64,000 nucleotides of DNA, from positions 8,187,001 through 8,251,000 of the forward strand of contig JAZBRS010000013.1 of the NCBI GenBank assembly GCA_037176725.1, written 5' to 3'. This DNA is from Posidonia oceanica. Its lineage: Eukaryota > Streptophyta > Magnoliopsida > Alismatales > Posidoniaceae. The notes below the pieces were generated by a model. It was given only the letters and a program-made list of their open reading frames with translations. It did no database searches and was not told the origin of the DNA. Made by a program: the position numbers and the translations under genes. Every line of letters starts with the position of its first letter. The stretch's first letter is position 1. Positions 3,154 through 39,301 of this stretch are shown piece after piece.

Positions 3154-3154
3154 C

Positions 3155-3303
3155 ATGAATGTGGGATGGGTAATCATGTGGAGAATTGGCTACAAGAAAG
3201 GCCAAGGCTTAGGCCGAGAAGGAAAGGGAATGAAGGAGCCAGTGAAGGTCTGTGACAGAGAAGGAAGGGGAGGACTCGGTTTCGACCAGTTCCCCGATGG
3301 ATG
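3155..3303 (+). pseudogene. G-patch domain after PR2, element A
   Basis: A stretch of about 45 residues with the glycine spacing of a G-patch: an aromatic start (VGW), IGYKKGQGLG, then GKGMKEPV and a terminal GLGF. G-patches bind RNA or activate DEAH helicases. Betaretroviruses carry one at the C-terminus of protease. It sits in frame right after PR2 and before a stop (3302-3304 region, CGA in B changed to TGA here). B (from 32484 down) and D (from 59835 down) carry the same domain; in B the GQGLG core has decayed to GHSLS. The family call is from glycine and aromatic pattern only. Confidence 0.75.
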
Positions 3304-8210: not shown

Positions 8211-9022
8211 GAGAGTCAAAACTGAAAAACTAGGGAATACTATGCGCAGTAGGAATCAACCTTGAACTAGGAGGGGTTTAGGCTTCAAATCTTCAGCCAA
8301 CATCTTAGGATAGGGCATGGACTTTCCTTTAACCACATCCTGCACTGTACACTAAGAGGCAAGGGGCAGAGGCCTAGGTCTAGGAGCAATTAGGTGCCAA
8401 AGCAAGCCCGTGGTATTTTCTGACTCTAAGATACACAAGGGACCAAACTGCCAAGGTTTTCCAACCATGAGGTCTCAAGTTTCCCAACTTCCCGGAGGAT
8501 TCTTCATCTCCCATAAAATCAAAAATCCAAAAAAAATCAAAAATAAAAAATCCAAAAAAATCAAAAATTAAAAATCCAAAAAAAAATGATAAAGTCAAAA
8601 ATCCAAAAAAATGATAAAATAAAAAATCCAAAAAATAGTGAATAGGGTAAAATTTACCCAACCAACATCATCTCATGAAACTGATAACAAGTAAAGGCCA
8701 GTGATGCGAAATCTAGGACATTTTGCGACTCCGCGTCGTACTTGACCCCTCCTATTCAGGACGGTCGCTTGGTATTCGCCTACGAGATAAGACTGGGATC
8801 TCAAGAAGAGACAGTCCCTCGTTTGGCATATCATCTTTAGACAATAAAGCTGAGGCCAATACTTGTTATTCAAAACCTATGTTTCTCCATTGCATTAAGA
8901 CTTCTTTCCCATTCATAGCATTAGGTTTGCTTAAAGTATGCATTGTATATAGGTTGTTACCAAGTGTTTTGTGACCATGTTGATTTCACAGTGTTAAAGA
9001 TGTTTCCAGAAGGCACTTTGGA

Positions 9023-9044
9023 CTAGGGGCAATCATACCCCTAG
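9023..9044. other. Perfect inverted repeat CTAGGGG/CCCCTAG between convergent transcription units
   Basis: Seven-base perfect arms with an 8-base loop, lying between the 3' end of pol and the 3' end of the antisense alpha gene. The same G4/C4 hairpin type occurs at the gag-pro/pol boundary, at the 3' end of antisense beta (11550-11561) and inside LTRs (20128-20148, 25966-25988, 38338-38358). A 3'-end processing or termination role is possible but not shown. Confidence 0.5.
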
Positions 9045-9108
9045 AGGGACTAACAAATTTGCTAAGGTAATGCAGGAAAACAATTCAGGGGCGTTAAACG
9101 GGCAAAAG

Positions 9109-9222
9109 TCAGCGTCCAACGTTGGACGCGTTATCTGAAGCGTATAACGATCAACAGAGGGATGTTGGACGCCTGATTTTCTGCGTCTTACGTTATAAGT
9201 GCCAGTTTGAACGTCTTACGTT
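9109..9222. promoter_or_regulatory. Cluster of GCGTNNAACGTT-type motifs with an 18-base palindrome
   Basis: GCGTCCAACGTTGGACGC at 9112-9129 is a perfect 18-base palindrome. It is followed by GCGTATAACG and two (G/A)CGTCTTACGTT copies. The same palindrome is conserved in B (26555-26572). This cluster lies 3' of both pol and alpha, unlike the promoter-linked clusters. Confidence 0.6.
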
Positions 9223-9406
9223 TTAATTGTGACTTAAACTGTAGATTTTTGGACAGAGGGCCCTTGATCAAATATCAAAGCCACTAGGGAGTATTTCTAA
9301 ACTCAGAACAATCCAAAACACATGAACAAGGATGAAAAATGAAATATATATATTAATTCCCTTGAAAAGATACATGGTCTCCAAAAATAAAAATTACAAT
9401 GATTGC

Positions 9407-10746
9407 CTATCTAACCATCTTCATCCTTTTCCTGCGCAGCACGCCCGTCGCCTCAACCCACTCCTCGGGCTTGGGCAGTAGCTTTGAATTCCACTTCCAG
9501 TGTGCATCCTCCCATGGTAGGCAGCAAGGAGCAGTTGATGGCCCCTCTGAATCACCATGGCGGTCCAAAGACGACCAGAGAGCCCGAATGTAGTACACCA
9601 TTACTGCATCAGATGGAAGACTGCACTCCCGGACCCGAATACGAGGAATAAAGCTCAGCCGAGGTGGCACCCCCTTCTTCTGTCCCACCATCTCGAAGCA
9701 GCGATGGGAGTTGTACACTACAAAGTGGGTGGGCCCTATCAGCTCCAACTCAACTGAAGAACCTCACGCCTGGTGCTTATGAGAAAGGGACGTGGAAGGC
9801 GCAGAAATGTCAATAGGAGTAGTGGACAAAGAGCAAACCCTTTCCTCAATCAAATCTGTCTTCACGGGCCCGAGCCTCGGGAAATGGACCTGCAGCCACT
9901 TGGAAAGAAGGAAAGGAGAGCCTACAAAATCCCCTCCGGTGGAAACGCTGGTCAGGCCAAGATATGTGGCAACAAGAATGGCCACTGAAGGAGAGCTCCA
10001 GAAATGCTCAGTAAGGCCTATCAAGAACTCAGTATGATAGACATCCAAGGAGAAATCCTTGGTGACAAATAAAGTAAGGCCTCCAATCAGTAAATGCAGA
10101 CACACCAGCAGCTGGTCCTGAGAGGCAGAGTCCTCAATCCGTCGGAAGCTGAAGTACAAATGCACCAAGTTGAGTCTGCGACCTCTTATCACTGGGAAGG
10201 TAGGCGGAAGGGTGAAGATACGGTCTATATATGTTTGCATATTTGCTGTTCCATGCGGCAATGGGAAGTCAATATCTGGCCGGGCCGCTCCAATCTGAGT
10301 TACACCAAGCAGGCTGTGAACATCCTCTACTAGGATTGTCGCCTCACAACCCCCAAAGAAGAAAGTATGAGTCTCAGGACTCCAGAAGGCGCATGAGGCA
10401 TGAAGCAGGGGCCAGTCCAAGTTGGTGCCCAACAAATCCAGAAGTTCATCAAAGCACATACGGGCCAAAACAGATTTCCTCTCTCGAGGCTAGAGCACAA
10501 AATCCTTCACCCAAGTGGAGTAGTAGGGGAAGTCATTGTCAAAGCAAGGTGTCTTGGTAAAATTGAGGAGTTCCTACAAAGAAATTCAGAGGCATGAGGA
10601 ACAAAGGAATGTGGGGGGACCAGTGAAGAGGATCATACCTTCTCCGTCTTAATAAGGGACATCATATGCCCTTCAATCTCTTCCAAAGGTTTTACGACCC
10701 CCTTCTTGTTATGCATGAAGACATTGGGGACTGAGCTAGAAGCCAT
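9407..10746 (-). pseudogene. Antisense gene alpha of element A (PMD-like, two exons)
   Basis: Two exons read on the minus strand: 10746-10639 (36 codons from ATG) and 10573-9407 (389 codons with stop), joined by a GT-AG intron in phase 0. The product is about 424 residues. The N-terminal half has the plant-mobile-domain style block WSPETHTFFF ... ATILVEDVHSLLG; the middle is hydrophobic (LLVCLHLLIGGLTLF); the C-terminal third is shared with alpha copies at 15246-16504 and 47773-49088 (FVVYNSHRCF). In-frame stops occur near 10530 and 9758, so this copy is decayed. A TATA-like TATAAAAG lies at 10851-10844, about 100 bases upstream of the ATG. PMD proteins of plants act in silencing and genome stability; the role here is unknown. 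Confidence 0.65.
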
Positions 10747-11110
10747 GAAAGCAAAAGAGAGGGAAGGAAGAAGCACAAATCAGGAAGAAATCAGTAGAGA
10801 GAAAAATGAGCAAGTATGCATGAAAATCAAAAGGGTGGCCAAGCTTTTATAAGCACAGGAGGATCGTCGGAAATCTTTCACGCAGGCATTGAGAAAATTT
10901 CGCAAGCATTCCGAAAGATTAGACAAGAACAGAAAAGGAAAGAAAAGTTTCTGGGCTTGCTTCGTTGTACGCAAGGCGGTGCGCGTCCAACGTTAGCCAC
11001 GCCATTTGACGCGTATAACGTTTAGAGCAGCTACCGGCATTGGACGCAGACATTCAAGCGGATAACGTTGGCCGCAGCAGATGAGGCGTATAACGTTTTA
11101 TCAGTGACTT
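10747..11110 (-). promoter_or_regulatory. Promoter region of antisense alpha, element A
   Basis: Reading toward alpha: a motif cluster at about 11101-10981 with four or five copies of GCGTCCAACGTT, GCGTATAACGTT and GCGGATAACGTT types, then TATAAAAG at 10851-10844, then the ATG at 10746. The same arrangement (motif cluster, TATA, start) is seen at 14774-15045 and 16504-16785 and in the LTR. Confidence 0.55.
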
Positions 11111-11574
11111 AAGTTACTGAACTTGGCTGGATTGCCCCCTGATCCGTGATTGAGTTGCATGCGCTTGTTTTGCCCATTCCAGAGGTTTAACTAAGTTGAA
11201 ATACACGTGTGAGCGTTGGTTTCATATTTTTTGGACATCCGGGCCAGTCAGAATCTCTGGTTGCTCGTTTCATCAAGTAAATGGCTCGCTAAGGTGTCGA
11301 CGACTTCAAAATTCAATTCTTAAGCTTCCAGGTGAAATCTTTCCTTATAACTATGTCATTTACATATTATTTCACTTGAATATGCTGGTTTCAAGTTAAT
11401 TTGGATTAAGGGCCATTATTTTGCCATATTGGTGGCTTAGGCTCACTTTAGCTTTGAGAAAGGTAATTTAAAAGAAGTATTTGACAAGTTTACCAAGTGT
11501 GCAGAAATCTATATCTTTTCAAAATATACAATTGTTCTACAAGGTCACCGGGGCATACCCCTGAAGTACAAAAG
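11111..11574. other. Spacer between antisense alpha and beta, element A
   Basis: AT-rich, no supported reading frame. The only structure I see is the hairpin GGGG-CATA-CCCC at 11550-11561, about 13 bases past the beta stop codon in beta's direction. Confidence 0.5.
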
Positions 11575-14500
11575 CTAGGGAGCACTCTCTCCCTCACCCT
11601 CAGGAATTGAAGCAGGAGCTGAAGTAGGGGCCGGAGAAGGGGTAGTAGGGGGATGAGGCGACTGTCGAACCGAAACGCCTAACGAGGCCCTGGAAACAGA
11701 CCGAGAATGGTAGCTACCCGACTAGCTACTCGGTATAGAAGGAAGACGCTCCCCGAGCCTGGCACCAGCTGAAAAAGCAAACCTTCGGTAGTGCCCAAGC
11801 TCAAGCTCGAGCTGGGAGATAACGCTCGCCGTGCCCTGAGAAGAGAAGCAGCCAAAAATATCATATATAAGCAAGGACATGGAAGACATAAAGAAGCGCT
11901 GAATTAAATCATACCACCTGAGATCGGGCAATCTCAGTGTCCCTATCAGCCACTTGCTGCTCTAGCTCCCTGATCCGAGCACTGCTAGCAGCGACTGTCC
12001 CCTCCAGCTCCTCTAACCTCCCAATAGAGCTGGCAGCTATGAAGTCACTAGCCCGCTCCCTTAGCTCGCCCTCTAGATAAGCAACCTACAAGCAATGGCG
12101 TCAGGACCAAGGGAACTTCAAAAGCAGAAACAAAATGAAAGCATATTTACCTTCTCCTGAAGATGGGAGATCTCCTCTGAGCGGTTCGGAGGAGGAGCGC
12201 TGCTAGTCAAAGGCTGAAAAGGAAGATTCAAGTCAGTGGCAATTCATAACCAGACTATAAAAGCTACTTGTGAAAATACCTGAGAGGTAGAGGCCCGTAG
12301 ACGGTCAATCTCCCCGGTCAGAATGGAGAGCTGCTGGGTCAAATGGCGCTCCTGCTGAGCCCGCTCATTGGCCGCCTTGAGCTGCAAAAGAAAGAAAGCA
12401 AGTTAGCCAAAATGAATTAACAGCCTACAAAATGAAATTCAGAAGCTCACTGCTATCTCCAGCTGGGCTCTAGAAGACTGAACCTCCTCCAACAGGGCCG
12501 CATGGGAAACCACCACCTCCCCGGGATCTGTGTCCCCCAAAGGAAGGTTCCCACACCCAAGGAAGTGGGACCGGTGGAAGATCATCAGAGAGAAAAACTC
12601 CTGGTCTATCCACTCAGCCCACTCCGCCTTGTCCTCCTCTGTAGCATCCGTCGGAGCGGGGGCACCACGACGGGCCCAGTCCAGGAGCTGTGGGCCGTAG
12701 ACGTTCACCCAGTGGCGAGCACGGCTGCCCCCGCCACGTGTCTCTCGCCAAACTCGGTGAGGAGGAGGTGAAGGCTGAACCTACCGGCACCCTAGCTGTC
12801 GTAGTGCCCTGCCAATCTGCTGGAAGTGGCAGTGGTTCCAGCAGTGGATTCATACGTCCCGGTTGAAAATGGTCCGATCACGGGCAATCTCGGGGACGTC
12901 CGCATGCTCCCCCTCAGTGTAGGAATGCCAAACCACCTGAAAAGAGCAATACATGTCAGCGAGCAGCATAAACAAATAAACAGAAGTCGAAATTAAAAGA
13001 AGCAAGTTACCTGAGTCGGGACAAGAATCTCGAAAAGCAGACGACCGACATAGCGGTTGTCATCTGCTGGCTCGAGGGCCTGCTCAGCAACAGTCCAAAA
13101 TAGTCCCCGAGGAAAGGGGACATCGGTAGGAAGAACCGGAGGAGGGGCAGGGCGCAGAAAGGTGAAGTGGTCCCATGCCCACATCTGCACGCAAAACAAG
13201 GAAGCTGTTAGTAAGAATATAATATCCAATACAAGCTTAAATATGCAGATTTACCTGAAGGAAGGGCAGGTTCCTGCCCAGCTGGCGAGAACTACCATCG
13301 GTGAAGCGGAATAGGGTGGAGTACAGGTGCGCTAAGCTCGCCGCACCCCAGGTGTACTCTCCCACACGCTCCAGGTCCGCCAGAAGAGGAAGGAACCACA
13401 CCGGGAGTTTTGAGGAGGAGTGCGAGAAGAGCACCTCCCTGAACAGCACCAAGAGGAAGGTCAACAGCAGCTGGTCAGCCTCCACGCCCGATCCATCAAC
13501 TGTCTCCGCCAGCTCACTCACCCGGCGAACCGCGGAAGTGATCACCACGAGCTGCTCCCCGCTCATGGCTAACTGGTGTTCAACAAGCTCCTGCGCCAAA
13601 ACCGAGTAGCTCGGGTGCACCCTCCCTGTCACCGGTCTGCTCGTGACCCGGAGACCAATCAGCCGCGCCATGTCCTCAAGGGAGAGGATAAACTCACCCG
13701 CCCGCATAACGATCGAACTCGTCCGAAAGCTCCACCGCTCAGCAACCGCCTCCAGAAACATTGGACGGAGGGGAAAGTCCGGGATGGACAAGAAATGCCC
13801 AAATCCCATCCGATCCAGACTCTCCTGCTAGAAAGAAGCCAACAAAGCGTAGGACCAGCGGACCTGACCCCAGTAGCAGCGGGTCACGGCCGGTGCTTGA
13901 CTCTACAAGCAAGCAGGAGAACTATCAGTCAGGATGAAATAATTGAACAAAATAAAGAGAAAAGAATGAAAAATGTATACCTGCCCCTAGAAGCCAGTGT
14001 GGCAGTGGCGTACTCTGATCGGGACGCGTCCCTACGTGGTCGCAACGCCTGCACCTCGTCTTTGGGGATCTGCTCCCGCCAGTAGTTCGGGGGATCCCTC
14101 GCGACGCCCTCCGCCTCCCGTCAGACGATGTCAACCATGTTCTGCCACCAGCCATCGTCCTCGCCAAACTGTGCAAGGAATGGGTCGACTGGCCTCGCCT
14201 CGGGCACCTCCGAGGGCCCCGCCTCGTCTAGGCTGACCTCAGGCCTTGCCTCTGAGACTGTCTCCCCTGAATCCTCCAAACTTAAGGAAGTGCTGGAATC
14301 AGAGACCGCCTCCGCCGTCGTCTCGACGGCCTCCCCGGAACCAGAGCCCTCCCCCACGATGGCCTCACTAGCGGTCGCCTCCGCCTCCACGGCGTCGTCA
14401 CCAACCACCACCTCGGCCTCCACGGAACCACCCACGGCAGCCCCCGTCTTCGCTCCCGCAGCCTTGGCATCACCACCGGATGTCGCCTCGGGCATCGCCA

Positions 14501-14774
14501 CGGCACCACTAGCCTCCACCACGTCTGCCACACTCTCCTCGGCCTCCACGGCCACCCCAGCAGCCGGCCCCGTCACCATAGCCACCGGACTCGCTGCCAC
14601 AGCCTCATCGCCGCCTGCCACGACCTCGCCGGCACCTCCTGCCGCCCTCGCCGCCGCATCCCGCGCCGCAGCAGCCACAGCCGCCACCTCCACCGCCGTT
14701 GCGCCGAAAGGGGTGGGGCCGGTCCGAGCTCGCTTGGCCGCCCTCGTGTAAAACTGAGATATGTGCCTCTCCAT
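11575..14774 (-). pseudogene. Antisense gene beta of element A (PMD-like core and coiled coil, eight exons)
   Basis: Minus-strand exons 14774-13981, 13900-13255, 13184-13011, 12936-12451, 12381-12280, 12213-12151, 12085-11918 and 11835-11575. All borders are GT-AG and phases match throughout, giving about 897 codons. Exon 1 encodes an Ala/Val/Glu-rich region after MERHISQFYTRAAKRAR. Exon 2 has a PMD-like block (MGFGHFLSIP ... GEFILSLEDMARLIGL). Exon 3 gives MWAWDHFTFLRP and exon 4 starts VVWHSY and contains IFHRSHF. Exons 5-7 are Glu/Gln/Leu-rich coiled coil. Stops lie in exon 1 (TGA, 14123-14121), exon 2 (TAG), exon 4 (TGA, TAG) and exon 8 (TAG). TATAAAA lies at 14879-14873. D carries the homologous gene at 49823-54116. 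Confidence 0.7.
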
Positions 14775-15245
14775 GTTCGCTGGATTGGGGAAGAAGGTCA
14801 CCGGAGTGGTCGCTGTCGCCGGAGAAGAAGAAGGGAAGAAACCAGATGGCCACCCGCGGCGTAGGACGAGGGTTTTATACCTTTTAACGCTGTACGCGTG
14901 AATCCCAGCGTCCAACGCCTCGAGAAGAAAGGATGTTATACGCGTCCTATTACGCGTTCAACGTTTTGCGAGTTAAAACGTTAGCCGCTGGCTTTTCAGC
15001 GTATAACATTAGACGCTCCATTTTGAGCATACAACGTTTTAAGTTCAGGGAAGTGTTCTGAATTCTGATATTCTCATTCAACTCATACAAATTCATTCAA
15101 AAGGGACCAAAGAGACGAAATAAATTTTATTGATGATAAGTGATACATTTCTAACTACATCTTTTGTCTTTTTGAAGGAAATTCAATAAACAATTTAGGA
15201 CGCACGCCCTCGTACCAAGCGTCATAAGTTGCAAGAGAAATGGCT
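14775..15245 (-). promoter_or_regulatory. Promoter region of antisense beta and spacer to alpha', element A
   Basis: TATAAAA at 14879-14873, about 100 bases before the beta ATG. Upstream in beta's direction, 14886-15045 holds about seven copies of the motif in several spellings (GCGTCCAACG, GCGTTCAACGTT, GCGTATAACA, TACAACGTTTT), several in opposite orientation. 15046-15245 is AT-rich, with no feature seen. Confidence 0.55.
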
Positions 15246-16504
15246 TCACGGTCCGCATTCGAGTTCTCCCATGCAGAAAGGACTCGGTTTCCCCTTCCCG
15301 TCCCAAGTACCAGCCTGATAGAAGAGCTGGATGATGTCCCCAGGAGTGTCCCTCAAGCGTAGGAGAATCATATCAGAGAAGCACGGCAAGGGAGGTATAG
15401 CCCGAGGAGTACCCAGCATTGAGAAGCAGCACTGAGGGTTGTACCTCACAAACTCGGTCGCCCTAATCAGCGTCAAGAAATACTCCGGGTCAGACACTGT
15501 TCTAAAAGATGAGGGGGGACTGAAGGAATCCATCTGGGATTTGACCTCGCAGGCGCATAAGCGGCGAATGAGCTCCTCCAAGGGAAGGCTAGCATCAAAA
15601 GTAGGCAGAAGAAAGTGCTCCTCCAGCTAGCGCAGAACTAGGAATGGTGAGCCAAAGAATGGCCCCCCGAGGCAGGCACTGGATAAGCCCCGGATGGTAA
15701 AAACCAAAACAGACTGACTCAAACACTTCTCCGGGTTACGCACGCAGATGCACATGAGCTCGGCATGGTAGGCACTAATAGTCAGAGCTTCATTTGGGAA
15801 GAGCACCAGTCCCCCGATCAGAATGAAGACGCATTCCAAGCAAGAAGCCTCAGAGCGGATGTTGTCGCGCTGTTTCCAGAAAAATTTCCACAAAGAGGAG
15901 AGTTTGATACAGCCATCTAGCACCAGGTCCTCCGGCACAACAATAGAGCCGAAGATGCGCTTTAAGAGAGAGAAAGAACCTACCACCCCGATTGGCAAAA
16001 GGTAGGCATCCCTGCAGTAAATGGATGGGTCGGCATGTCGAGTACCTAGGAGGGTGCTCACCTCCTCCAAGAGAATGGTCAATTCCCTCGAAGAAGAAAA
16101 GAACATGTGAGTCAAGGGATTCCACAGCCCACAAAGGCCGAAGAGCGCCTTCCAGTCAACAGGCTGCCGCAGCTGGCGAAGGGCCTGACAGAGACCAGCC
16201 TCCTCCAAGCATTCCTGGTACTTCTTCAAAGCCCAAGAGTGGAATTGTTGAACCCAGTCCAACTGATAGGCTTTCGAGTCCCGGTCGTTGTTGGCAGAAG
16301 ATAGGGACTATAAAGTAAAGAAAAATCAGCAGAAATACGAGAATGGGAGTATGCGGAAAAGATGAAAACAGGGAGTACCTTCTCATGCACCAACAGGTTC
16401 GCCAAATGGTTGGGTATGGCCTCCAGCCGGAGTTGCACCATGTCAGAAGGAGCGGAGAAGACGGCCACCTGGAAAGCATGACGTGGGATATCACTCAAAT
16501 CCAT
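15246..16504 (-). pseudogene. Antisense gene alpha' of element A (PMD-like, two exons)
   Basis: Exon 1 16504-16379 (42 codons from ATG, starting MDLSDIPRHAF) and exon 2 16307-15246 (354 codons with stop), GT-AG intron of about 70 bases in phase 0; about 395 residues. It contains CGLWNPLTHMFF ... LTILLEEVSTLLG, then LECVFILIGGLVLFPNEALT and FFGSPF. One in-frame TAG at 15629-15627; the frame is otherwise open. It is clearly homologous to alpha (9407-10746) but distant, and very close to the Y copy at 20600-21878. A TATATTAG box lies at 16598-16591, 94 bases before the ATG. Confidence 0.7.
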
Positions 16505-16875
16505 GAGGAGAAGCACAAGCCCTAGCAAGCAAAAATAATAAGGGAAGGAAGATAAATGTTTGAACTACAAGATTCAAGCCAAGAGGAGGTCTAATATAGG
16601 CCGTGGAGCCTTCATCAGAATGGAAACCCAAAGAAAATTGGGAATTTACTGCCAAAACGGCGGTGCCCGAACAAGGAAGACACCAGCCTGTCTCGCGACG
16701 TTATACATGGCCGTAATGCCGTCCAACGTTAGCCGCGGTTCTTCAAGCGTCCAACGTTAAACGCTAACAATCAAGCGTCCAACGAGTCAAAGCAGAATTG
16801 AGAGCAGAACAGCAAGAACCTGGAGCACAACCGGGTCAACAAAGCAAGCTAAGCCAAAAAAAAAAGTATCCTTTT
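16505..16875 (-). promoter_or_regulatory. Promoter region of antisense alpha', element A
   Basis: TATATTAG at 16598-16591, and a motif cluster at 16697-16785 with GCCGTCCAACGTTAGCC, GCGTCCAACGTTAAACGC and GCGTCCAACG. Y keeps the same arrangement at 21879-22165. 16790-16875 is the start of the 3' UTR. Confidence 0.5.
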
Positions 16876-17700
16876 CGACTCCCTTGGGTCTTCCTCTAGG
16901 CACGTCATGCTTTTACTTTCGACTCCCTTGGGTCTTTCCCTAGGCACATCATGCTTTTACTTTCGACTCCCTTGGGTCTTCCCCTAGGCACGTCATGTTT
17001 TTTTATTTTCGACTCCCTTGGGTCTTCCCCTAGGCACGTCATGTTTTTTATTTTCGACTCCCTTGGGTCTTCCACTAGGCACGTCATGCTTTTACTTTCG
17101 ACTCCCTTGGGTCTTTCCCTAGGCACATCATGCTTTTACTTTCGACTCCCTTGGGTCTTCCCCTAGGCACGTCATGTTTTTTTATTTTCGACTCCCTTGG
17201 GTCTTCCCCTAGGCACGTCATGTTTTTTATTTTCGACTCCCTTGGGTCTTCCACTAGGCACGTCATGCTTTTACTTTCGACTCCCTTGGGTCTTCCTTTA
17301 GGCACGTCATGTTTTTACTTTCGACTCCCTTGGGTCTTCCCTTAGGCACGTCATGCTTTTATTTTCGACTCCCTTGGGCCATCCCCTAGGCATGTCATGT
17401 TTTTTATTTTCGACTCCCTTGGGTCTTCCCCTAAGCACGTCATGCTTTTATTTTCGACTCCCTTGGGCCATCCCCTAGGCATGTCATGTTTTTTATTTTT
17501 GACTCCCTCGGGTCTTCCCCAAGGCATGCCATGTTTTTTATTTTCGACTCCCTCGGGTCTTCCCCTAGGCACGTCATGCTTTTATTTTCTACTCCCTTGG
17601 GCCATCCCCTAGGCATGTCATGTTTTTGTTTTTGACTCCCTTGGGCCATCCCCTAGGCATGTCATGTTTTTTTATTTCCGCCTCCCTTGGGTAATCCCCT
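16876..17700 (+). repeat. 3' UTR minisatellite, 44-46 base unit, about 18 copies
   Basis: Tandem units beginning CGACTCCCTTGGGTCTTCCC and ending CGTCATGTTTTTATTTT. Units differ by a few bases. The block 16905-17100 recurs almost exactly 179 bases later (17084-17279), a higher-order repeat of four units. Open frames over the array are a by-product of the repeat. Minisatellites in the 3' UTR next to the polypurine tract are known from Ogre/Tat elements. Confidence 0.9.
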
Positions 17701-18180
17701 CGGCAAACCAATCTCAAAGAACCCCGGAGCATAACTGGGATAACAAAGCAAACCAATCAAGGAAAGATCCCCAGAGCACAACCGGGATAACAAAGCAAAC
17801 CAATCTCAAAAATCCCTGGAGCATAACTGGGACACCAAAGTAAAGAACCCCGGAGCATAACAGGGATACCAAAGCAAAGATCCCCGGAGCATAACCGGGA
17901 CATCAAAGCAAAGATCCCCGGAGCATAACCAGGTTAACAAAGCAAGCCCCAATCTCAAAGATCCCCGGAGCATAACTGGGACATCAAAGCAAACCCCAGA
18001 GCACAACCGGACAAACAAAGCAAGCCAATCAAAATTAGGTACCCTGGAGCACAATCGGACAACAAAGCAAACCCCGGAGCATGACCGGACAAACAAAGCA
18101 ACCCCGGAGCACAACTGGACAAACAAAGCAAAACCAATCAGCAGAAAGATCCCCGGAGCACAACCGGGTCAACAAATCAA
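17701..18180 (+). repeat. 3' UTR minisatellite, about 35 base unit with internal hairpin, about 13 copies
   Basis: Unit of the type GATCCCCGGAGCATAACCGG followed by GATAACAAAGCAAA. Each unit contains CCCGG-AGCATAN-CCGGG, a five-base stem with a 7-base loop. The Y copy at 23108-24015 has about 26 units. Confidence 0.88.
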
Positions 18181-18780
18181 AGCCAACAGTATTAGTGAAT
18201 CCCCTGTTCACTAACTCCTGGATCAGAAGATGATGGTCCCCATCGAGAATGTAGGCGGCATTCAATGAAAGGACACTTGATTCTGACGAATAACGCCAAT
18301 GGTATCGATGGACTCATCGTTCCTCGATTCCGGGTCACGAGATGACGGTCTCTGTCGAGAATGTAAGCAACATTCAATGAAAGGACACCTAATTGTGACA
18401 AATAGAGCCAACGTGGCTAGCAGAGAAGAGATCATTTCCCCTTTTGCCTGGGAGCATCATGGACCTCTCGCTCACCAACCCGCGTATCATGAGACGACGG
18501 TCCCTTGGGAGAGTGTAGGCTACACTCGAGGAAAGGGGCACCTGATCATGACAAATTGCATTCACGCATGTGTCAGTCCACCTTGGGTGGTGAGAAAAAT
18601 TCCTGAGCCAACCTGGTATACAAATTAAAGCCGGCGATGATGGAGGAACCTCATTAACTAGGGTCATGCATTGCATATCATGACCCTTTTTGCATTCCCG
18701 TCAGCACGCATCCATGCATAGTGCATTATACTGCATTCGCATTGTACTGCATTCGCATTGAGTGGTCGTCGGAATCATTA
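18181..18780 (+). other. Unique 3' UTR spacer, element A
   Basis: No reading frame supported. It contains a dispersed block of about 100 bases repeated two to three times in degraded form (core: ATGATGGTCCCCATCGAGAA, then a CATTCAATGAAAGGACAC block). Homologous to Y 24016-24620 and, inverted, to C 40000-40280. Confidence 0.6.
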
Positions 18781-19030
18781 GCTATCCATCCTGTTAGTTT
18801 GAGTCTTGCAGGCAATCCCCGTAGCATGTCTTTTAGTTTGACCCCTGCGGGCAATCCCCCTAGCATGTCTTTTAGTTTGACCCCCATGGGCAATCCCTGT
18901 GGCTTGTCTTTTAGTTTGACCCCCGCGGGCCATCCCCGCAGCAGCATCCTTTAGTTTGACCCCCACAGGCCATCTCCGTGGCATGTCGTTAGTTTGTTCC
19001 CCTTGGACAATCCCCTTGGCCGTGTTTCTT
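18781..19030 (+). repeat. 3' UTR minisatellite, about 41 base unit, about 6 copies
   Basis: Units of the type TTAGTTTGACCCCCGCGGGC followed by CATCCCCGTGGCATGTC. The Y counterpart is at 24625-24860, and C has about 11 inverted copies at 39302-39780. The G/C-rich middle can pair with itself within the unit. Confidence 0.85.
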
Positions 19031-19160
19031 TAGCCGACCCTCTTTATGTCCCGTCCAAGTTTGGTGGCAGCAGGCATTGGATTTCATTTAGGACCCCCAG
19101 GTAGCGCCACACGGGGGTATCATCTTGCCTTGTAGATAGCTTCGTGCCGAAGCCATCTCC

Positions 19161-19174
19161 AAGGAAGGGCAATC
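19161..19174 (+). promoter_or_regulatory. Polypurine tract of element A
   Basis: AAGGAAGGGCAATC immediately before the LTR start TGTAGATACC. It primes plus-strand DNA synthesis. Equivalents are AAGGAGGGGCAATC at 24995-25008 (Y) and AAGGAGGGGCATC before the D LTR. Confidence 0.8.
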
Positions 19175-20576
19175 TGTAGATACCCCGTTTTGGCACTCCC
19201 TTCATGTTAGGATAGTCTCTTGCATTAGGTCGCTCTTAGAAGCCTTCCACCCATTTCTGAATCTCACTTGAGCCAAATGTTCCTCTCAAGTCCAAAATGC
19301 TATACCTTTCTAAGCCCCAAATGTTGGCAACCTGAGTGTTCTTCACGTCCTGACCAAATTTGGAAGTTAAACTGATTAAGGGTGTTGTCTGCTGGCTTCT
19401 CAGCGTACAACATTGGCCGCTGGTTTTCCAGCAGCTAACATTTGCTGCTGGCTTTCCAGTGTCCAACGTGGCAACCCAGTCAGCCAAAGCTTTCTTTATT
19501 TGGCCTAATCTAAAAATCATGTTTTTGCCTTCTTTGGAACCTGTTGACTGGTCAAAGCCATCAAAGCCGAGTTTAATCACACTTAAAGACTCCTTAATTG
19601 GAGAATCTTTTCTTATCCTAGTAGTTATGCCTCGTAGGTCGTTATACGTGAGTTCTCTCGCTTATAACGCTATACGCTGGTTTTCCAGCGTATAACACTT
19701 CTGAAATAGGAAACTCTGCTGACTTGGCATTTGTGTCCTTTTTTGTTCCTCCCTTCCTTCTATAAAAACAAGGGTACCCCCACTAAGTTCAAGGCCGGAA
19801 TTTTGAGAGAAAAAAGGAGTGAAGAAACTTTTGGAACTCACATGCTCTTGAGATTGAAAATCTTAGAGAAGTAAGGTCCTTAAGAATTGAAAGAGAGAAG
19901 AGAGTTTTTGAAAGAAGGAGAGTCTTAGAAAAAGCTTGAGGATCCTTTTGTCGTTGTTGGCTTCATGCCAACATAGTTTGCACCTTGAGCATAGACAGAG
20001 GAGACTCTATTTCATTCATTTCTTTTTTTTATTTCTGATATTACATGTTTAATTCCGTAGTATAATCAAGCATTTTTATTTCAAGTTCATATATTTTTAA
20101 CTAGGCATACATCTCTTTTAGTTGCAACCGGGGGGATCAAACCCCTCGGGTACGTATCTCACTATGCTTTCTTTATTTTCTTTTCTACTAACTCTGGATA
20201 GATTACTACACATATTGATCCATCTTTATATTATTTTGTTTGTTTTGCTTTGCTAACGTTTGTCATACAAGGAGGAAGAAGGAAGAAAGAGCTTACCAAG
20301 CACGGGCACCCTTGGGCAACGTTGGCGTTGTCCCAAGGTAGCTGAACCTGCAACCAAACTACATCTCCCCAAAGGCGTCTCGAGGGCTGGCGAAAGCGAA
20401 TCGAGAGTGGCTATCACACCGATTCCATCACACGTGGAGTGACGGAGTCGGATACAAAGAAGGGGGACCTCGAGAAAGAGAAGATAGAGCGAGCAAAAGA
20501 GGGAGCCAAAAGAAGCCTTCTTCTTCCCCAAACCTCCATCATCATCTTCTTCTTCTCCTCCAAAACCCCATATCCA
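19175..20576 (+). mobile_element. 3' LTR of element A (about 1.40 kb)
   Basis: Starts TGTAGATACCCCGTTTTGG and ends CCCCATATCCA. The terminal TG...CA borders are supported by the polypurine tract on the left and by comparison with LTRs at 25009 and 39187. TATAAAAA at 19761-19768. Motif clusters (GCGTACAACATTGG, GCGTATAAC) at 19384-19480 and 19638-19697 lie upstream of the TATA box. A perfect inverted repeat TATACGCTGG/CCAGCGTATA occupies 19671-19694. A G/C hairpin (CCGGGGGG ... CCCCTCGG) sits at 20128-20148 in the transcribed part. Confidence 0.85.
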
Positions 20577-20599
20577 CACCAAGCGTCATAAGTAGCAAG

Positions 20600-21878
20600 A
20601 GAGATGACTTCGCGGTCCGCGTTCGAGTTCTCTCATGCAGAAAGGACTCGGTTTCGCCCCTTCCCGTCCCAAGTGCCAGCCTGATAGAAAACCTGAATGT
20701 TGTCCCCAGGGGTGTCTCTCAAGCACGGGAGAATAATGTCAGAGAAGCGAGGCAAGGGAGGTATAGCCCGAGGAGTACCCAGCATCGAGAAGCATCGCTG
20801 AGTGTTGTACCTCACAAACTCGGTCGCCTCAATCAACGTCAAGAAGTACTCTGGGTCAGACACTGTCTTGAAAGACGAGGGGGGACTAAAGGAGTCCATC
20901 TAGGGCTTGACCTCACAAGCACATAAACGGCGAATATACTCCTCCAGGGGAAGGCTAGCATCAAGAGCAGGCAGAAGAAAATGCTCCTCTAACCAGTGCA
21001 GAATTAGAAAGGCGAGCCGAAGAATGGTCCCCCGAGGCAGGCACTAGATAAGCCCCAAATAGTGAAAGCCAAAACAGACTGACTCAAACATTTCTCCGGA
21101 TTGCGAACGCAGATACTCATGAGCTCGGCATGGTAGGCGCTAACGGTCAGGGCTTCATTTGGGAAGAGTACCAGTCCCCCGATCAGAATGAAGACACATT
21201 CCAAGCAGGAAGCCTCGGAGCGGATGCTGTCGCGCTGTTTCTAGAAAAATTTCCACAAGGAGGAGAGTTTGATATAGCCATCTAGCACCAGGTCCTTCGG
21301 CACAACAACAGAGCCAAAAATGCGCTTTAAGAGAGAAAAAGAGCCTACCACCCCGATTGGCAAAAGGTAGGCATCACTGCAGTAAATGGACGGGTCAGCT
21401 TGTCGAGTACCTAAAAGGGCGCTCATCTCCTCCAAAAGAATGGTCAATTCCCCTGAAGAGGAAAAGAACGTGTGAGTCAAAGGATTCCACAGCCCGCAAA
21501 GGCCGAAAAGCACCGTCCAGTCAACAGGCTGCCGCAACTGGCGAAGAGCTTGACAAAGACTAGCCTCTTCCAAGCGCTCCCAATACCTCTTCAAAGTCCA
21601 AGAGCGGAATTGTTGAACCCAGTTCAACTGGTAGGCTTTTGAATCGCGGTTGTTATTGGCAGAGAATAGGGGCTACGAAGTAAGAAAAAAATCAGCGAAG
21701 ATAAAGGAATACGAGAATGGGAGTATGGGGTAGTAATGAAAACAGAAAGTACCTTCTCATGTACCAAAAGGTTCGCCAAATGATTAGGTATAGCCTCTAG
21801 CCAAAGTTGCACCATGTCGGAAGGAGAGGAAAAGACGACTACTTGGAAAGCATGGCGCGGGATATCACTCAAATCCAT
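20600..21878 (-). pseudogene. Antisense gene alpha'' of element Y (decayed)
   Basis: Copy of alpha'. Exon 1 is 21878-21753 (42 codons from ATG) and exon 2 starts at 21672, with the same phase-0 GT-AG intron. It keeps CGLWNPLTHTFF, LEEMSALLG and FILIGGLVLFPNEALT. Broken by stops near 21241 and 21002 and by a frameshift between about 21004 and 20899; the C-terminal part (20899-20633) reads in another phase. The last exon reaches near the Y/A junction. Confidence 0.65.
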
Positions 21879-22244
21879 GAGGAGAAGCACAATTCCGAGC
21901 AAGTAAAAAAAAAAACGATAGAGAAAGGAAGATCGATGTTTGAATTGCGAGATCCATGCCAAGATGGGGTCTAATATAGGCCGTGGAGCCTTCATCAGAA
22001 TGGCAACCCAAAGAAAATCGGAGATTTACTGCCAAAACGGTGGTGCCCGAATAGGAAAGACAGTAGCCTGTCTCGCGACGTTATACACAGCCGTCTTGCC
22101 GTCCAACGTTAGCCGCGGTGTTTTACCCGTCCAACGTTGAACGCTAAAAATCCAGCGTCCAACAAATCAAAGTAGAATTGAGAGCAAATCAAAGATCCCC
22201 GGAGCACAACCAGGCCAACAAAGCAAGCAAAGCTAAAGAAGTAT
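21879..22244 (-). promoter_or_regulatory. Promoter region of antisense alpha'', element Y
   Basis: TATATTAG near 21980-21973 and a motif cluster at 22079-22162 (GCCGTCCAACGTTAGCC, CGTCCAACGTTGAACGC), matching A 16505-16785. Confidence 0.5.
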
Positions 22245-23107
22245 CCTTTTCAACCCCCTTGGGCAATCCCCTTGGCATGTCGTGTTATCCTTTCGACCCC
22301 TTTGGGCAATCCCCTTCGCACGTCATGTTTTTATTTTCGACCCCCTTGGGCAATCCCCTTCGCACGTCATGTTTTTATTTTCGACCCCCTTGGGCAATCC
22401 CCTTGCCACGTCATGTTTTTAATTTCGACCCCCTTGGGCAATCCCCTTGGCACGTCATGTTTTTATTCTCGACCCCCTTGGGCAATCCCCTTGGCACGTC
22501 ATGTTTTTATTCTCGACCCCCTTGGGCAATCCCCTTGGCACGTCATGTTTTTATTTTCGACCCCCTTGGGCAATCCCCTTGGCACGTCATGTTCTTATTT
22601 TCGACCCGCTTGGGCAATCCCCTTGGCACGCCATGTTTTTATTTTCGACCCCCTCAGGCAATCCCCTTGGCACGTCATGTTTTTATTCTCGACCCCCTTG
22701 GGCAATCCCCTTGGCACGTCATGTTTTTATTTTCGACCCCCTTCGGCAATCCCCTTGGCACGTCATGTTTTTATTTTCGACCCCCTTGGGCAATCCCCTT
22801 GGCACGTCTTGTTCTTATTTTTGACCCCCTTGGGCAATCCCCTTGGCACGTCATGTTATCCTTTCAACCCCCTTGGGCAATCCCCTTGGCACGTCATGTT
22901 TTTATTTTCGACCCCCTTGGGCAATCCCCTTGGCACGTCATGTTTTTCACCCCCTCGGGCAATCCCCTTGGCACGTCATGTTTTTATTTTCGACCCCCTT
23001 AGGCAATCCCCTTGGCATGCCATGTTCTTGTTTTCGACCCCCTTGGGCAATTCCCTTAGCACGTCATGTTTTGTTTTCGACCCCCTTGGACAATCCCCTC
23101 GGCAAGT
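22245..23107 (+). repeat. 3' UTR minisatellite of element Y, 44 base unit, about 19 copies
   Basis: Units of the type CGACCCCCTTGGGCAATCCC followed by CTTGGCACGTCATG and a T-rich end, 44 bases apart. It occupies the place of the A array at 16876-17700, but the unit has drifted (GGGCAATCCCC in place of GGGTCTTCCCC) and is uniform within Y, which indicates separate homogenisation. Long open frames over it are repeat by-products. Confidence 0.9.
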
Positions 23108-24015
23108 TTGTAAAGAACCCTGGAGCACAACCAGACAAAAAAAGCAAACCCAATCAAAGCAAGGATCCCCGGAGCATGACCGGGATAACAAAGCAAACCA
23201 TCCAAAAACAAGCCCGGAGCACAACCGGATAAACAAAGCAAACCCAATCCAAGCAAGGATCCCCAGAGCATAACTGGGACATCAAAGCAAAGATTCCCGG
23301 AGCATAGCCGGGATACCAAAGTAAAAGATCCCCGGAGCATAGCCGGGATACCAAAGCAAGGATCCCCGGAGCATAACAGGGACACCAAAGCAAAGATCCC
23401 CGGAGCATAGCCGATATACGAAAGCAAAAGATTCCCGAAGCATAACTGGGACACTAAAGCAAAGAACCCCGAAGCATAGCCGGGATACGAAAGCAAAAGA
23501 TCCTCGGAGCATAGCCGGGATACCAAAGCATGGATTCTCGGAGCATAGCCGGAATACCAAAGCAAAAGATTCCCGGAGCATAGCCGGGATACCAAAGCAA
23601 AGATCCCCGGAGCATAACTAGGATACCAAAGCAAAAGATCCCCGGAGCATAGCTGGGATACCAAAGCAAAAGATCTCTGGAGCATAGCCGGGATACCAAA
23701 GCAAAAGATCCCTGGAGCATAGTCGGGATACCAAAGCAAAAAATCTCCGGAGCATAGCCGGGATACCAAAGCAAAAGATCCCCGGAGCATAATCGGGATA
23801 CCAATCAACAAAAGATCCCCGGAGCATAACCGGGATACCAAAGCAAACCCCGGAGCATAACTTGATAAACAAAGCAAATCCCGGAGCACAACCAGATAAA
23901 CAAAGCAAGCCCCGGAGCACAATCGGATAAACAAAGCAAACCCCAGAGCACAACCGGACAAACAAAGCAAACCAATCAACAGCAGGTACCCCGGAGCACA
24001 ACTGGATTAACAAAG
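23108..24015 (+). repeat. 3' UTR minisatellite of element Y, about 35 base unit, about 26 copies
   Basis: Units of GATCCCCGGAGCATAGCCGG then GATACCAAAGCAAAA. Same family as A 17701-18180 but roughly twice as many copies. Each unit can form a CCCGG/CCGGG hairpin. Confidence 0.9.
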
Positions 24016-25008
24016 TAAAGCCAACGGTATTAGTGAACCCATGCTCACTAACTCCCGGGTCAGAAGATGATGGTCCCCGTCGAGAATGTAGGCAACATTC
24101 AATGAAATGACACTTGATTCTGACAAATGAAGCCAACGGTATTGATGGACTCATTGTTCATTAATTTCGAGTCACGAGACGATGGTCTCTATCGAGAATG
24201 TAGGCAACATTCAATGAAAGGACACGTAATTGTGACAAATAGAGCCAACATGGCCGGCAGAGAAGAGATTATTTCCCCTTTTGCCTGGGAGCATCATAGA
24301 CCTCTCGCTCACCAACCCGCGTATCATGAGACGATGGTCCCCTTAGAGAGTGTAGGCTATGCTCGAGGAAAGGGCACCTGATCATGACAAATTGCATTCA
24401 CGCATGTGTCAGTCCGCCTTGGGTGGTGAGAAAAATTCCTGAGCCAACCTGGTATACAAATTAAAGCCGACGATGATGGAGGAACCTCATTACCTAAGGT
24501 CATGCACTACATATCATGACCCCCTCTTTCGCATTCCTGTCAGCACGCATCCATGCATAGTGCATTGTATTGTATTTGCATTGTATTGCATTCGCATTAA
24601 GTGGTCGTTGAAAACATTAGCTATCCATCTTTTAGTTTGACCCCCACGGGCAATCCTCGTGGCATGTCGTTAGTTTGACCCCCGCGGGCAATCCCCATGT
24701 CATGTCATTAGTTTGATCCCCGCGGGCAATCCCCATGGCATGTCGTTTAGTTTGACCCCCACAGGTAATCCCTGTGGCATGTCGTTAGTTTGACTCCCGT
24801 GGGCAATCCCCGTGGCATGTCTTTAGTTTGTTCCCCATGGGCAATCCCCTTGGCCGTGTTTCTTTAGCCGACCCTCTTTGTGTTTCGTTTAAGTCTGGTG
24901 GTAGCAGGCATTGGTTTTCATTTATGATCTCTAGGTAGCACCACATGGGGGTATCATCTTGCCTTGTAGATAGCTTCGTGCCGAAGCCATCTTCAAGGAG
25001 GGGCAATC
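24016..25008 (+). other. 3' UTR spacer, 41 base minisatellite and polypurine tract of element Y
   Basis: 24016-24620 matches A 18181-18780. 24625-24860 holds about six 41-base units (TTAGTTTGACCCCCGCGGGC type). 24861-24990 is a conserved spacer. The polypurine tract AAGGAGGGGCAATC at 24995-25008 touches the LTR. Confidence 0.75.
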
Positions 25009-26419
25009 TGTAGATACCCCATTTTGACACTCACTTCATGTTAGTATAGTCTCTTGCATTAGGTCGCTCTTAGAAGCCTTCTGCCCAATCCAGAATGTCT
25101 CACTCGAGCCAAATGTTTTCTCTCAAGTACAAAATGTTATCCTTATCTAAGCCCCAAGTGTCGGCAACTTAAGTGTTCTTCATGTCCTGACCAAATTTGG
25201 AATTTGAACTGACTGAGGGTGTTGTACGCTGGCTCCTTAGCATACAACGTTGGCTACTGGTTTTCCAGCGGCTAACATTGGCCGCTGGTTTTCCAGCGTC
25301 TAACGTGGCAACCCAGTCAGCCCAAAGCTTTCCTTATTTGCCCAAATCCAAAAATCATTTTTTTGCCTTCTTTGGAACCTATTGACCGGTCAAAGCTATC
25401 AAAGCTGAGTTTAAACACACTTAATGACTCCTTAATTGGGGAATCTTCTCTTATTCTGGCAGTTATGTCTCGGAGGTCGTTATACGCTGGGAGTCTCGCT
25501 TATAACGTTATACGTTAGTTTTTCAGCGTATAACACTTCTAAAACAGGAAACTCTACTGACTTGGCATTTGTGTCCTTTTTTGCTCCTCCCCTACTTCTA
25601 TAAAAGCAGGGGTACCCCTACTGGAAGAAAAGAGAATGGATCTGGGAGAGATTTAGGCTGGATTTTTGGAACTCACATGTTTTCTTGAGATTGAAAGATT
25701 TCTAGAAAAAAATGAAGTCCTTGAGAATTGAAAGAGTGAAAGAGAGATTTTGAAAGGCAGAAAGTCTTTGAAAAAGCTTGAGTGTCCCTTTGTCGTTGTT
25801 GGCATCATGTCAACGTATTTTGCACTCTGTGCATAGATAAAGGGGACTCTATTTTATTGTTTTCTTTTCTTTTCTCATATCACATGTTTAATTCCAAAGC
25901 ATAATCAAGCTTTTTTTTGAGTTCATATATTGTTGTAGCTAAGCATACATCTTTATTAGTTGCAACCGAGGGGATCAAACCCCTCAGGTACGTATTTCAT
26001 TATGTTTCTCCATCTTCTTTTCTATTTATTCTGGATGAGTTACTACACATATTGATCCATCTTTGCACTGTTTTTGTTTGTTTTGCTAACATTTGTCATA
26101 TGAGGAAGAAGAAAGAAGAAGAAGCTCACCAAGCACGAGCACCCTTGGGCAACGCTGGCGTTGTCCCAAGGTAGCTGAACCAGCAACCATATCACATCTC
26201 CCCAAGGCGTCTCGAGGGTCAGTGAAAGCAAACCGAGAGTGGCAATCACACCGGCTTCAACACATGTGGAGTGAAGAAGTCGGATACAACAAAAAGGGGA
26301 TCCCAAGAAGGAGCAAGCAGCAACAAAAGCAAGGGAGAGACGGAGAAGCCACACACACCCCACTTCTCCTCCCCGAAGATCCCTTCCTCCTCCCACTCCT
26401 CTCCAAAACCCCATATCCA
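25009..26419 (+). mobile_element. 3' LTR of element Y (about 1.41 kb)
   Basis: Starts TGTAGATACCCCATTTTG and ends CCCCATATCCA. TATA-like TATAAAAG at 25599-25606. Motif clusters at 25222-25312 and 25477-25540. It is collinear with the A LTR, with many substitutions. The base after the LTR begins the inverted 3' region of element B, so Y appears to have inserted into B. Confidence 0.83.
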
Positions 26420-39187: not shown

Positions 39188-39301
39188 GCGATCACATCGA
39201 CCTCATTACCCGTGGAGTGGCAAGATCGAATACAAATAGAAGGGGACGCTGAGAAAGCAACAAACACAAAAACGCTTTTCTCCTCCGAAACCCCATATCC
39301 A
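39188..39301 (+). mobile_element. Fragment G: last 114 bases of another LTR
   Basis: Collinear with the ends of the A and Y LTRs (ATCACATCGACC ... CCCCATATCCA), + orientation, followed at 39302 by the inverted 3' UTR of element C. It is read as the end of a + element inserted in C and then split by B. The remainder should lie left of the window. Confidence 0.7.

Follow-up and report, generated by a model that had tools for sequence, protein, structure and literature searches.

Several described systems resemble parts of the arrangement reported here. In the sections of the Arabidopsis VANDAL/VANC literature used for comparison, a short motif is concentrated in the noncoding DNA of the element itself and stacked in tandem, whole units are gained or lost between copies, a related family uses a different motif, and the element carries a gene that is not for transposition (PMC5735166, PMC10398659); the VANC21 motifs lie in the same orientation (PMC5735166). 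Among LTR retrotransposons, the Tat elements Retand, Grande and Ogre have extra antisense ORFs, and the PMD domain is found in 57% of Ogre elements. The portions of this literature that were compared propose a regulatory role for the antisense proteins without going further, and describe no cis-motif common to LTR and antisense promoters (PMC6317226, PMC7264820, PMC11963269). Tnt1 is known for short BII boxes in U3, near the promoter, which bind defence-induced host DNA-binding factors; the part of that report used here mentions neither boxes at antisense genes nor an inverted repeat with a 28-bp pitch (PMC3316501). Host PMD proteins are represented by MAIN and MAIL1 (PMD-C), which according to the excerpts cited are required for silencing (PMC5418596, PMC7156037) and are connected with a motif (DOWN) in the promoters of PMD-dependent genes (PMC7156037, PMC9899485). 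Direct, indirect or no DNA binding by the host PMD complex are all left open in the excerpt concerned (PMC9899485), and no demonstration of DNA binding by the PMD domain was found in the parts of the PMD literature consulted.

We analysed a window of 64,000 nt from Posidonia oceanica (contig JAZBRS010000013.1), to which all site counts are confined. The array-bearing elements in this window are Tat/Ogre-like LTR retrotransposons. In element A the domains follow in the order RT_RNaseH, RVT_3 and rve, with an additional RNase H before the integrase; the second, diverged element F (45-64 kb) has RT_RNaseH, RVT_3 (8.5e-5) and rve. A preliminary description of this DNA had reported five clusters of GCGTNNAACGTT-type sites in element A, each upstream of a TATA-like box. 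All five are real, and the signal is stronger than first described: allowing up to two mismatches on both strands, GCGTNNAACGTT has 98 matches in the window compared with 27.9 expected, and none of 100 shuffles contained as many.

The GCGTNNAACGTT site arises where one copy of a 28-bp inverted repeat, GTTRKACGC-N10-GCGTMYAAC, directly adjoins the next. Since this diverging geometry is the commonest (46 pairs, against 26 palindromic ones), the palindrome GCGTMYAAC-GTTRKACGC was dropped as the basic unit. Counted as a fixed pattern at 12 or more of 14 letters, the 18-bp palindrome has 22 matches versus 0.0 in 20 Markov sequences. The window contains 51 units of 28 bp that score at least 9 bits, where 0.5 (Markov-1) or 0.4 (Markov-3) are expected, a somewhat optimistic null, since this window also supplied the training sites of the matrix. 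Both the A-type and the F-type matrices scored the sites on which they had been trained, which makes their nulls optimistic, whereas the GCGTNNAACGTT shuffles, the 18-bp palindrome count and a count of the F repeat used fixed patterns. The motif-free search is the sole count independent of the choice of motif; in A it gave 4 copies versus a maximum of 3 in shuffles, a margin no better than that of the F pol control.

All 51 units lie in noncoding DNA, with coding intervals drawn manually on the basis of ORFs, Pfam hits and splice signals, and therefore the density of the motif is not equal in coding and noncoding parts. The pitch is exactly 28 bp in 26 of the 33 neighbour pairs that are at most 60 bp apart. 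Spacers differ in 48 of the 51 units, and likeness between regions is 0.71 for arms and 0.31 for spacers (31 of the 51 units, seven regions, 410 pairs), a comparison in which the arms were chosen by score and the spacers were not. Spacers are repeated inside LTRs (TGGTTTTCCA), and TRF detects 28-bp arrays at 19391-19467, 25246-25304 and 44550-44609. Conservation of the sites between copies is favoured by two regions and not by the LTR, where sites are no better conserved than their flanks (0.152/0.144/0.068 versus 0.118/0.129/0.107).

Four units in element A (9093-9219; spacing 28, 43 and 28 bp) lie between pol and the 3' end of the antisense gene alpha, and four more (10964-11094; 28, 47 and 28 bp) lie upstream of alpha, with a TATA box at 10846 (-); these two arrays around alpha were aligned without a null. 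The five units upstream of antisense beta (14861-15035) are accompanied by a TATA box at 14874 (-), which is overlapped by the first unit (14861), a weak one of 10.8 bits. Upstream of antisense gamma, three abutting units (16700-16783) are found together with the TATA-like CTATATTA at 16592 (-). The U3 of the 3' LTR (19174-20576, +) contains three abutting units at 19384-19467 and two at 19641-19696, the TATA box being located at 19761 (+).

The motif family had been assigned to element A; it is present there but not confined to it, as copies C, D and E carry arrays too. Copy C has three units upstream of gamma (22080-22163; TATA-like box at 21972, -) and, in the LTR U3, three units at 25221-25304 and two at 25479-25534, with a TATA box at 25599 (+). 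Copy D has a post-pol array of four units (26465-26591; 28, 43 and 28 bp), five units at three places of the 5' leader (36431-37636; at 36431, at 36815 and 36843, and at 37581 and 37609), and two plus two units in the LTR U3 (38692-38976; TATA box at 38622, -). This LTR (37926-39188), named D LTR here, could alternatively be the 3' LTR of E; compared with the A and C LTRs it has exactly one 28-bp unit fewer. Copy E has no PMD genes in the interval from pol to the LTR and retains its arrays, with four units at 40452-40587 (28, 52 and 28 bp) and five in the leader (44582-44934).

A TATA-like box is present on the expected strand, 6-109 bp from the cluster edge, at 7/7 promoters of A, C and D (alpha, beta, gamma, C-gamma and the LTRs of A, C and D), in a scan whose strings included variants already noticed at two promoters, those of gamma and F gene 1. 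The statement that each cluster precedes a TATA box thus holds for these promoters, but not for the 22 of 51 units outside LTR and antisense promoters, which form the post-pol and 5' leader arrays and show no consistent TATA box. The proposal of a cis-module common to sense and antisense promoters is supported by the positions of arrays and TATA boxes.

The antisense genes were compared with the PMD family (PF10536; Pfam cut-off 34.9 bits). Alpha (9407-10746, approximate limits, -) matches at 1.1e-7 (31.8 bits), just below the cut-off. For beta (11575-14774, -) we assembled an 8-exon model of about 897 residues, with exon joins picked by eye from GT-AG signals and five internal stops in the A copy; it matches PMD above the cut-off (6.7e-37, 127.9 bits). 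Its layout is an acidic N-terminus (38 acidic versus 6 basic residues between 25 and 215), the PMD and a C-terminal part with weak coiled-coil matches, of which the top Pfam match is 8.5e-4 and every one is below cut-off; a crude heptad count reaches a maximum of 0.34. Gamma (15214-16503, -) is PMD-like, with PMD at 0.12 (11.9 bits) and DUF7745 at 0.04 in the A copy, and PMD at 3e-5 (23.8 bits, below cut-off) in the C copy. Differences between the two gamma copies by codon position (0.08/0.05/0.21) show a third-position excess, and this pattern shows gamma to be under apparent purifying selection. Of the pieces compared, those from beta-type genes alone exceed the PMD cut-off, the alpha and gamma models being incomplete. 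DUF1985 matches in beta (0.035 to 0.2) are below cut-off, and for this reason homology of PMD and DUF1985 was rejected; DUF1985 is absent from the match lists of F beta, and no DUF287 match was listed in the Pfam search of the PMD-type genes. No protein relative at E <=0.01 was found among 7996 candidates scored, in a database in which plant proteins are apparently scarce. A PDB sequence search returned a single match (E 0.68), and AlphaFold gave a poor model for the PMD exon (pLDDT 57.8), with no Foldseek match (best E 1.9).

Element F has its own antisense PMD genes and no A-type units; exact GCGTMYAAC occurs 37 times in 1-45 kb and 0 times in 45-64 kb. In matching places F carries a different inverted repeat, AGTCGCC-N9-GGCGACT, with 9 units in 45-50 kb at 11 or more of 14 letters versus 0.05 expected, a count whose half-site was itself read from k-mers of the F region. 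The motif-free search recovered the same motif, with 9 copies versus a maximum of 5 in 100 shuffles. With 20 shuffles each, it gave 5 versus a maximum of 4 for the F pol control, 19 versus a maximum of 4 in 50000-55400 (AT-rich tandem repeats, F beta intron), and 6 in 60400-64000, where the null also reached 6. A full palindrome, AGGCGACTAGTCGCCT, was tried as F motif and has 0 matches, the F unit having a 9-bp spacer; a 12-bp spacer ties with 9 at 10/14 letters (10 each) and loses at 11/14 (3 versus 9).

F units are located in the LTR at 45839 and 45943 (45839-45969; TATA box at 45761, -) and at 46308 and 46340 (46308-46392), which are 32 bp apart and followed by a weak unit (9/14 letters) at 46370. 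A doublet with 28-bp pitch (47643-47697) lies upstream of F gene 1 (47997-48791, +, antisense to F; PMD 2e-4, 21.1 bits, and DUF7745 0.008, both below cut-off), with the TATA-like GATAAAAG at 47759 (+). F beta (49823-54116, approximate limits, +, antisense to F) has a PMD match of 6.1e-26 (91.9 bits) and a weak coiled-coil match close to its C-terminus; the units upstream of it (49383-49637) are a single one at 49383 and a doublet at 49583 and 49611, again with 28-bp pitch, which is thus seen in two of the three close pairs of F. In F, the TATA scan found boxes at the LTR and at gene 1 and none upstream of F beta, where TAATAAAAC at 49651 was noticed by eye only. Past 50 kb, the F-type scan gave a tenth unit at 53842, inside the F beta coding region; one F-type unit also lies at 4790 in A pol, with 1.25 expected in 1-45 kb.

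The arrays can be read as sites set aside for a dimeric DNA-binding protein, likeliest the element's own PMD protein beta, which would couple LTR and PMD promoters in a positive loop; we give this reading almost an even chance. Each unit would be a candidate two-fold symmetric site, in which a 10-bp spacer separates two outward-facing 9-bp half-sites, and units would be stacked two or three together at the LTR promoter, the antisense PMD promoters, the 5' leader and the post-pol position. The reader would be a PMD protein of the element, with beta favoured most. This protein would activate the LTR and PMD promoters together and keep them unsilenced, giving a retrotransposon a positive loop like that of VANC. 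What we infer is that a factor binds, that it does so as a dimer, which protein it is, and that its effect is to activate or to counter silencing. A PMD protein, already suggested earlier, is a plausible candidate for the cognate factor.

The likeness to VANDAL elements seen in the preliminary description stands as regards confinement to noncoding DNA, tandem stacking, units gained or lost (the D LTR) and the changed motif of F, although the window contains a single F-like element, so that a changed motif accompanied by a changed protein is seen in one case; it does not extend to protein family and orientation. The arrays here consist of inverted half-sites, mostly at 28-bp pitch, unlike the same-orientation motifs of VANC21; the elements are LTR retrotransposons with RT, RNase H, integrase and LTRs, not MULE-type DNA transposons, and the protein is PMD, not DUF1985/DUF287. 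The arrangement is VANDAL/VANC-like in layout and is not a member of that system.

A host transcription factor exploited by the element, with antisense promoters copied or evolved under the same factor, is a possible but less likely reader. The BII boxes of Tnt1 are a precedent, the units at promoters sit 6-109 bp from TATA boxes in an enhancer-like manner, and E retains units although it has no PMD gene of its own. A shared factor predicts shared arms, whereas F, which shares the window and the promoter layout, has different arms and no A-type units; units are also present in leader and post-pol positions. Alternatively, the arrays might be a repressor site or boundary at which the PMD product, as an autorepressor, reduces sense and antisense transcription or keeps the two in balance. 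This shares its reader with the PMD-driven positive loop, so that the probabilities overlap, and we consider it unlikely: a protein bound to the beta array, whose weak unit overlaps beta's own TATA box, could block initiation, and MAIN and MAIL1 are needed for silencing, but other arrays are 56-109 bp upstream and the strongly acidic N-terminus of beta fits an activator better than a repressor. That the reader is encoded by the element and is alpha, gamma or a Gag/Pol product rather than beta is decidedly unlikely in our estimate; A has three PMD-type genes, F at least two, and gamma shows the codon-position pattern described above, but only beta-type genes exceed the PMD cut-off, a weak point given the incomplete alpha and gamma models. 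Functionless, neutral tandem duplication of 28-bp stretches would account for the repeated LTR spacers and the TRF arrays and is highly improbable, in view of the differing spacers, the better agreement of arms between regions, the lack of units in coding DNA and the retention of the layout with other arms in F.

More generally, the PMD proteins of retrotransposons (PMD-A) may be sequence-specific, self-directed regulators, a VANC counterpart from another protein family with a family-matched code of symmetric half-sites at 28-bp pitch on sense and antisense promoters; we put this forward as a tentative generalisation, below even probability. If true, self-directed control of elements would not be limited to VANDALs, and very large plant retrotransposons would come equipped with a matched switch for turning themselves on, which a self-encoded protein may read. 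PMD, also required for host silencing, would gain a molecular role, and host MAIN/MAIL proteins would derive from, or share, a DNA-reading domain.

The MAIN/MAIL1 DOWN system concerns host genes and not elements, and neither half-site shows similarity to the DOWN motif, taken in the form printed for MORC1 (CATGCAGTTT; p 0.73 to 0.90). The half-site has no significant similarity to the VANC21 motif; its likeness to the VANC6 motif (p 0.0025 to 0.008) is suggestive only, this being one of six uncorrected comparisons. The exact palindrome was also seen in 43 stretches of viral contigs, which we take as chance.

The preliminary description had proposed one short motif family upstream of every TATA box in element A, one of the copies (A, C, D and E) of a Tat/Ogre-like LTR retrotransposon family. 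The GCGTNNAACGTT-type motif is indeed present in the five clusters between 10981 and 19697, far above chance: with up to two mismatches on both strands, 98 matches were found where 27.9 were expected, and 0 of 100 shuffles reached this number. Counting palindromic 18-mers that matched 12 or more of 14 letters gave 22, versus 0.0 in 20 Markov sequences. Half-site geometry was tallied for positions 1-45000 at 6.5 bits (88 forward and 100 reverse half-sites). The dominant geometry was a reverse half-site followed by a forward one 19 bp on (46 pairs), which defines a 28 bp unit, GTTRKACGC-N10-GCGTMYAAC; next in number came half-sites pointing the same way 28 bp apart (26 and 24 pairs) and the palindromic arrangement (26). 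The AACGTT described earlier results from abutting units, where the AAC that closes one unit meets the GTT that opens the next. A matrix trained on this same window and applied to the 18 arm positions yielded 51 A-type units of at least 9 bits, compared to a mean of 0.5 (maximum 3) in 50 Markov-1 sequences and of 0.4 (maximum 2) in 50 Markov-3 sequences. Neighbours at most 60 bp apart were found 33 times, 26 of them with a pitch of exactly 28 bp.

All 51 units are noncoding according to coding intervals set by us (31855 bp coding, 32145 bp noncoding). Promoters contain 29 units, located at the antisense PMD-type genes of A (alpha 4, beta 5, gamma 3), at gamma of C (3) and in the U3 regions of A (5), C (5) and D (4). 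The remaining 22 are found in post-pol arrays of A, D and E (4 each) and in the leaders of D and E (5 each). All seven A, C and D promoters have a TATA-like box on the correct strand at a distance of 6-109 bp from the edge of the cluster; over the 64 kb the simple scan detected 31 strings on the plus strand and 37 on the minus strand, and its strings included variants already seen at gamma and at gene 1 of element F. In the same scan TATA-like boxes were absent or inconsistent at the post-pol and leader arrays. Clusters thus lie upstream of TATA boxes at the promoters, as had been proposed, but the arrays extend beyond promoters.

Element F (45-64 kb, minus strand) is a diverged relative, with a pol about 68% identical at the DNA level and an LTR start 88% identical over 42 bp. 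It carries antisense PMD genes of its own, gene 1 (PMD match 2e-4, under the cut-off) and F beta (6.1e-26). The same half-site and unit scans detected no A-type units in F. A second unit, AGTCGCC-N9-GGCGACT, was derived from over-represented k-mers of F and is present nine times between 45 and 50 kb (at least 11 of 14 letters; 0.05 expected from 20 Markov sequences), in the U3 upstream of the F TATA box and also upstream of both gene 1 and F beta. Scanning to 64 kb added one unit at 53842, in the F beta coding sequence (10 versus 0.2), and 1-45 kb contains one versus 1.25 expected. Close F-type pairs are 28 bp apart in two of three cases and 32 bp in one; an extra 28-bp pair includes a weak 9/14-letter site at 46370. 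Motif-free discovery recovered the repeat in F (9 copies, maximum 5 in 100 shuffles) and, in two A promoter stretches, TGTACGC-N10-GCGTCCA (4 copies, maximum 3 in 20 shuffles); the excess in A does not surpass that of the F pol control (5 versus maximum 4). Stretches of gag-pol from A and D yielded 3 copies, inside the nulls. Aligned at the dyad, both unit types read CGC-N10or11-GCG, and the arm similarity of A to F has an uncorrected p of 0.027.

That symmetric units are stacked at the promoters of the element, mostly with a single pitch, would be explained most simply by a single dimeric reader. The main rival is that this reader is a host factor. Since the F arms differ while the pitch is similar, the reader appears to change with the element, which argues for an element-encoded protein. 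Of these proteins beta would be the best candidate because of its PMD match (6.7e-37, profile 2-301 of 347). In A, beta has eight exons, about 897 residues and five internal stops, so that this copy is dead. Residues 25-215 contain 38 acidic and 6 basic residues; this acidic N-terminus and the analogy to VANC, the anti-silencing proteins of VANDAL DNA transposons, suggest that a reader would act by activation or anti-silencing. Several coiled-coil models matched the beta C-terminus weakly (best 8.5e-4, none above cut-off), and a crude heptad count of 0.34 did not strengthen the coiled-coil case. F beta, 36% identical to A beta in exon 2, likewise has a weak coiled-coil type match in its C-terminal part.

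Between A and C, codon positions 1, 2 and 3 of gamma differ by 0.080, 0.053 and 0.213 in the main exon; the corresponding values for the 3' part are 0.127, 0.040 and 0.208. For three pieces of pol, A and D differ by 0.122-0.184 at third positions and 0.053-0.088 at first or second positions. Gamma has therefore been preserved at the protein level with a strictness similar to that of pol. The PMD genes (9407-16503, 47997-54116) fall into two subtypes, one beta-like with strong PF10536 and one like alpha, gamma and F gene 1 with weak PF10536 and weak DUF7745; identity of the latter to exon 2 of F beta is 14-19%.

Mean information per column was 1.26 bits in arms and 0.21 in spacers, and 48 of the 51 units have distinct spacers. 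When units from different regions were compared (31 of 51 units, seven regions, 410 pairs), identity was 0.71 in arms, which were picked by score, and 0.31 in the unscored spacers, a contrast that disfavours plain duplication as the origin of the units. Inside the LTRs local duplication contributes, as spacers repeat there; the D LTR is without exactly one 28-bp unit present in the A and C LTRs. Comparison between copies shows fewer differences in sites than in flanks for the gamma promoter (0.114 versus 0.216) and post-pol (0.054 versus 0.168); LTR sites are not better kept (0.152, 0.144 and 0.068 versus 0.118, 0.129 and 0.107). In six promoter stretches, half-sites occupy 489 of 2758 bp and hold 69 of 109 CpGs, an enrichment that is to some extent built in by the CpG of the motif itself. 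This concentration makes it possible that the array is a methylation sensor.

Self-comparison is consistent with members of one family inserted into one another, a probable arrangement whose left ends and target duplications fall outside the window. A (plus strand) comprises gag-pol from 1 to about 7748, the three antisense genes, tandem repeats and a 3' LTR (19174-20576). It would interrupt the gamma gene of C (20578-26421), which itself would lie within D (minus strand, gag-pol 35692 to 26422; 87% identical to A over 9370 columns). The LTR from 39188 to 37926, named D LTR, may alternatively be the 3' LTR of E. The pol domain order is RNase H, RVT_3, integrase, as described for angiosperm Tat elements (PMC6317226). 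From pol end to LTR, E matches A 9017-9078, next carries a 4-unit array, and matches A again at 11176-11257 and from 18397 onward; alpha, beta and gamma are absent there, and no PMD match was obtained for three more open frames of E. Arrays are retained by E in this interval and in its leader. The post-pol and alpha-promoter arrays of A align along their length (no null was run), both with spacing 28, 43 or 47, 28. Alpha lies between two similar arrays, as if acquired as a cassette, and PMD genes look as if they come and go as array-bounded cassettes. The 4-unit arrays flanking alpha are at A 9093-11260; E has one array at the fused position (40276-40661).

According to PMC5735166, VANC21 binds YAGTATTAY and VANC6 targets AGTTGTCC and AGTTGTAC; VANC targets are arranged as tandem repeats within noncoding DNA, VANC21 motifs have a single orientation, and VANC domains are DUF1985 and DUF287. 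The VANDAL likeness suggested beforehand applies to layout (noncoding units, tandem stacking), not to membership. Overall, the original observation stands in sharper form, and its interpretation gains partial support. Of the motifs compared, that of VANC6 is similar to the A half-site, with GTTGTAC in common (p 0.0025 to 0.008, uncorrected, one of six comparisons); motif comparison found no resemblance to the VANC21 motif or to DOWN, the motif of host PMD-dependent genes. Antisense genes with a promoter of their own, for which a regulatory function is proposed, have been described in Retand and Grande (PMC7264820, PMC11963269), and earlier work suggests that captured or TE-encoded PMD may counteract silencing (PMC5418596, PMC8616336). 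In the accessible portions of open-licence PMC papers we found no report of a cis-array common to LTR and antisense promoters.

The first intron of F beta (50980-51211) contains AT-rich tandem repeats of the ATTAATGTTTGAAATG type with a period of 16-20; tandem repeats also occur in an intron of VANC21 (PMC5735166). Both A (16872-17705) and C (22247-23104) carry 44-bp tandem arrays of about 19 copies between gamma and the LTR; arrays of 34-35 bp and of 38-39 bp repeats come next, and none of these tracts contains a unit. At 2405-3301, a G-patch domain (1.7e-9) immediately follows an aspartic protease match; G-patch and PMD are among the commonest extra domains of plant Gypsy elements (PMC9289625). 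In E, a repetitive stretch of GCTCTG/GCACGGGCATTG units (42644-43061) lies in an open frame past the gag-like part.
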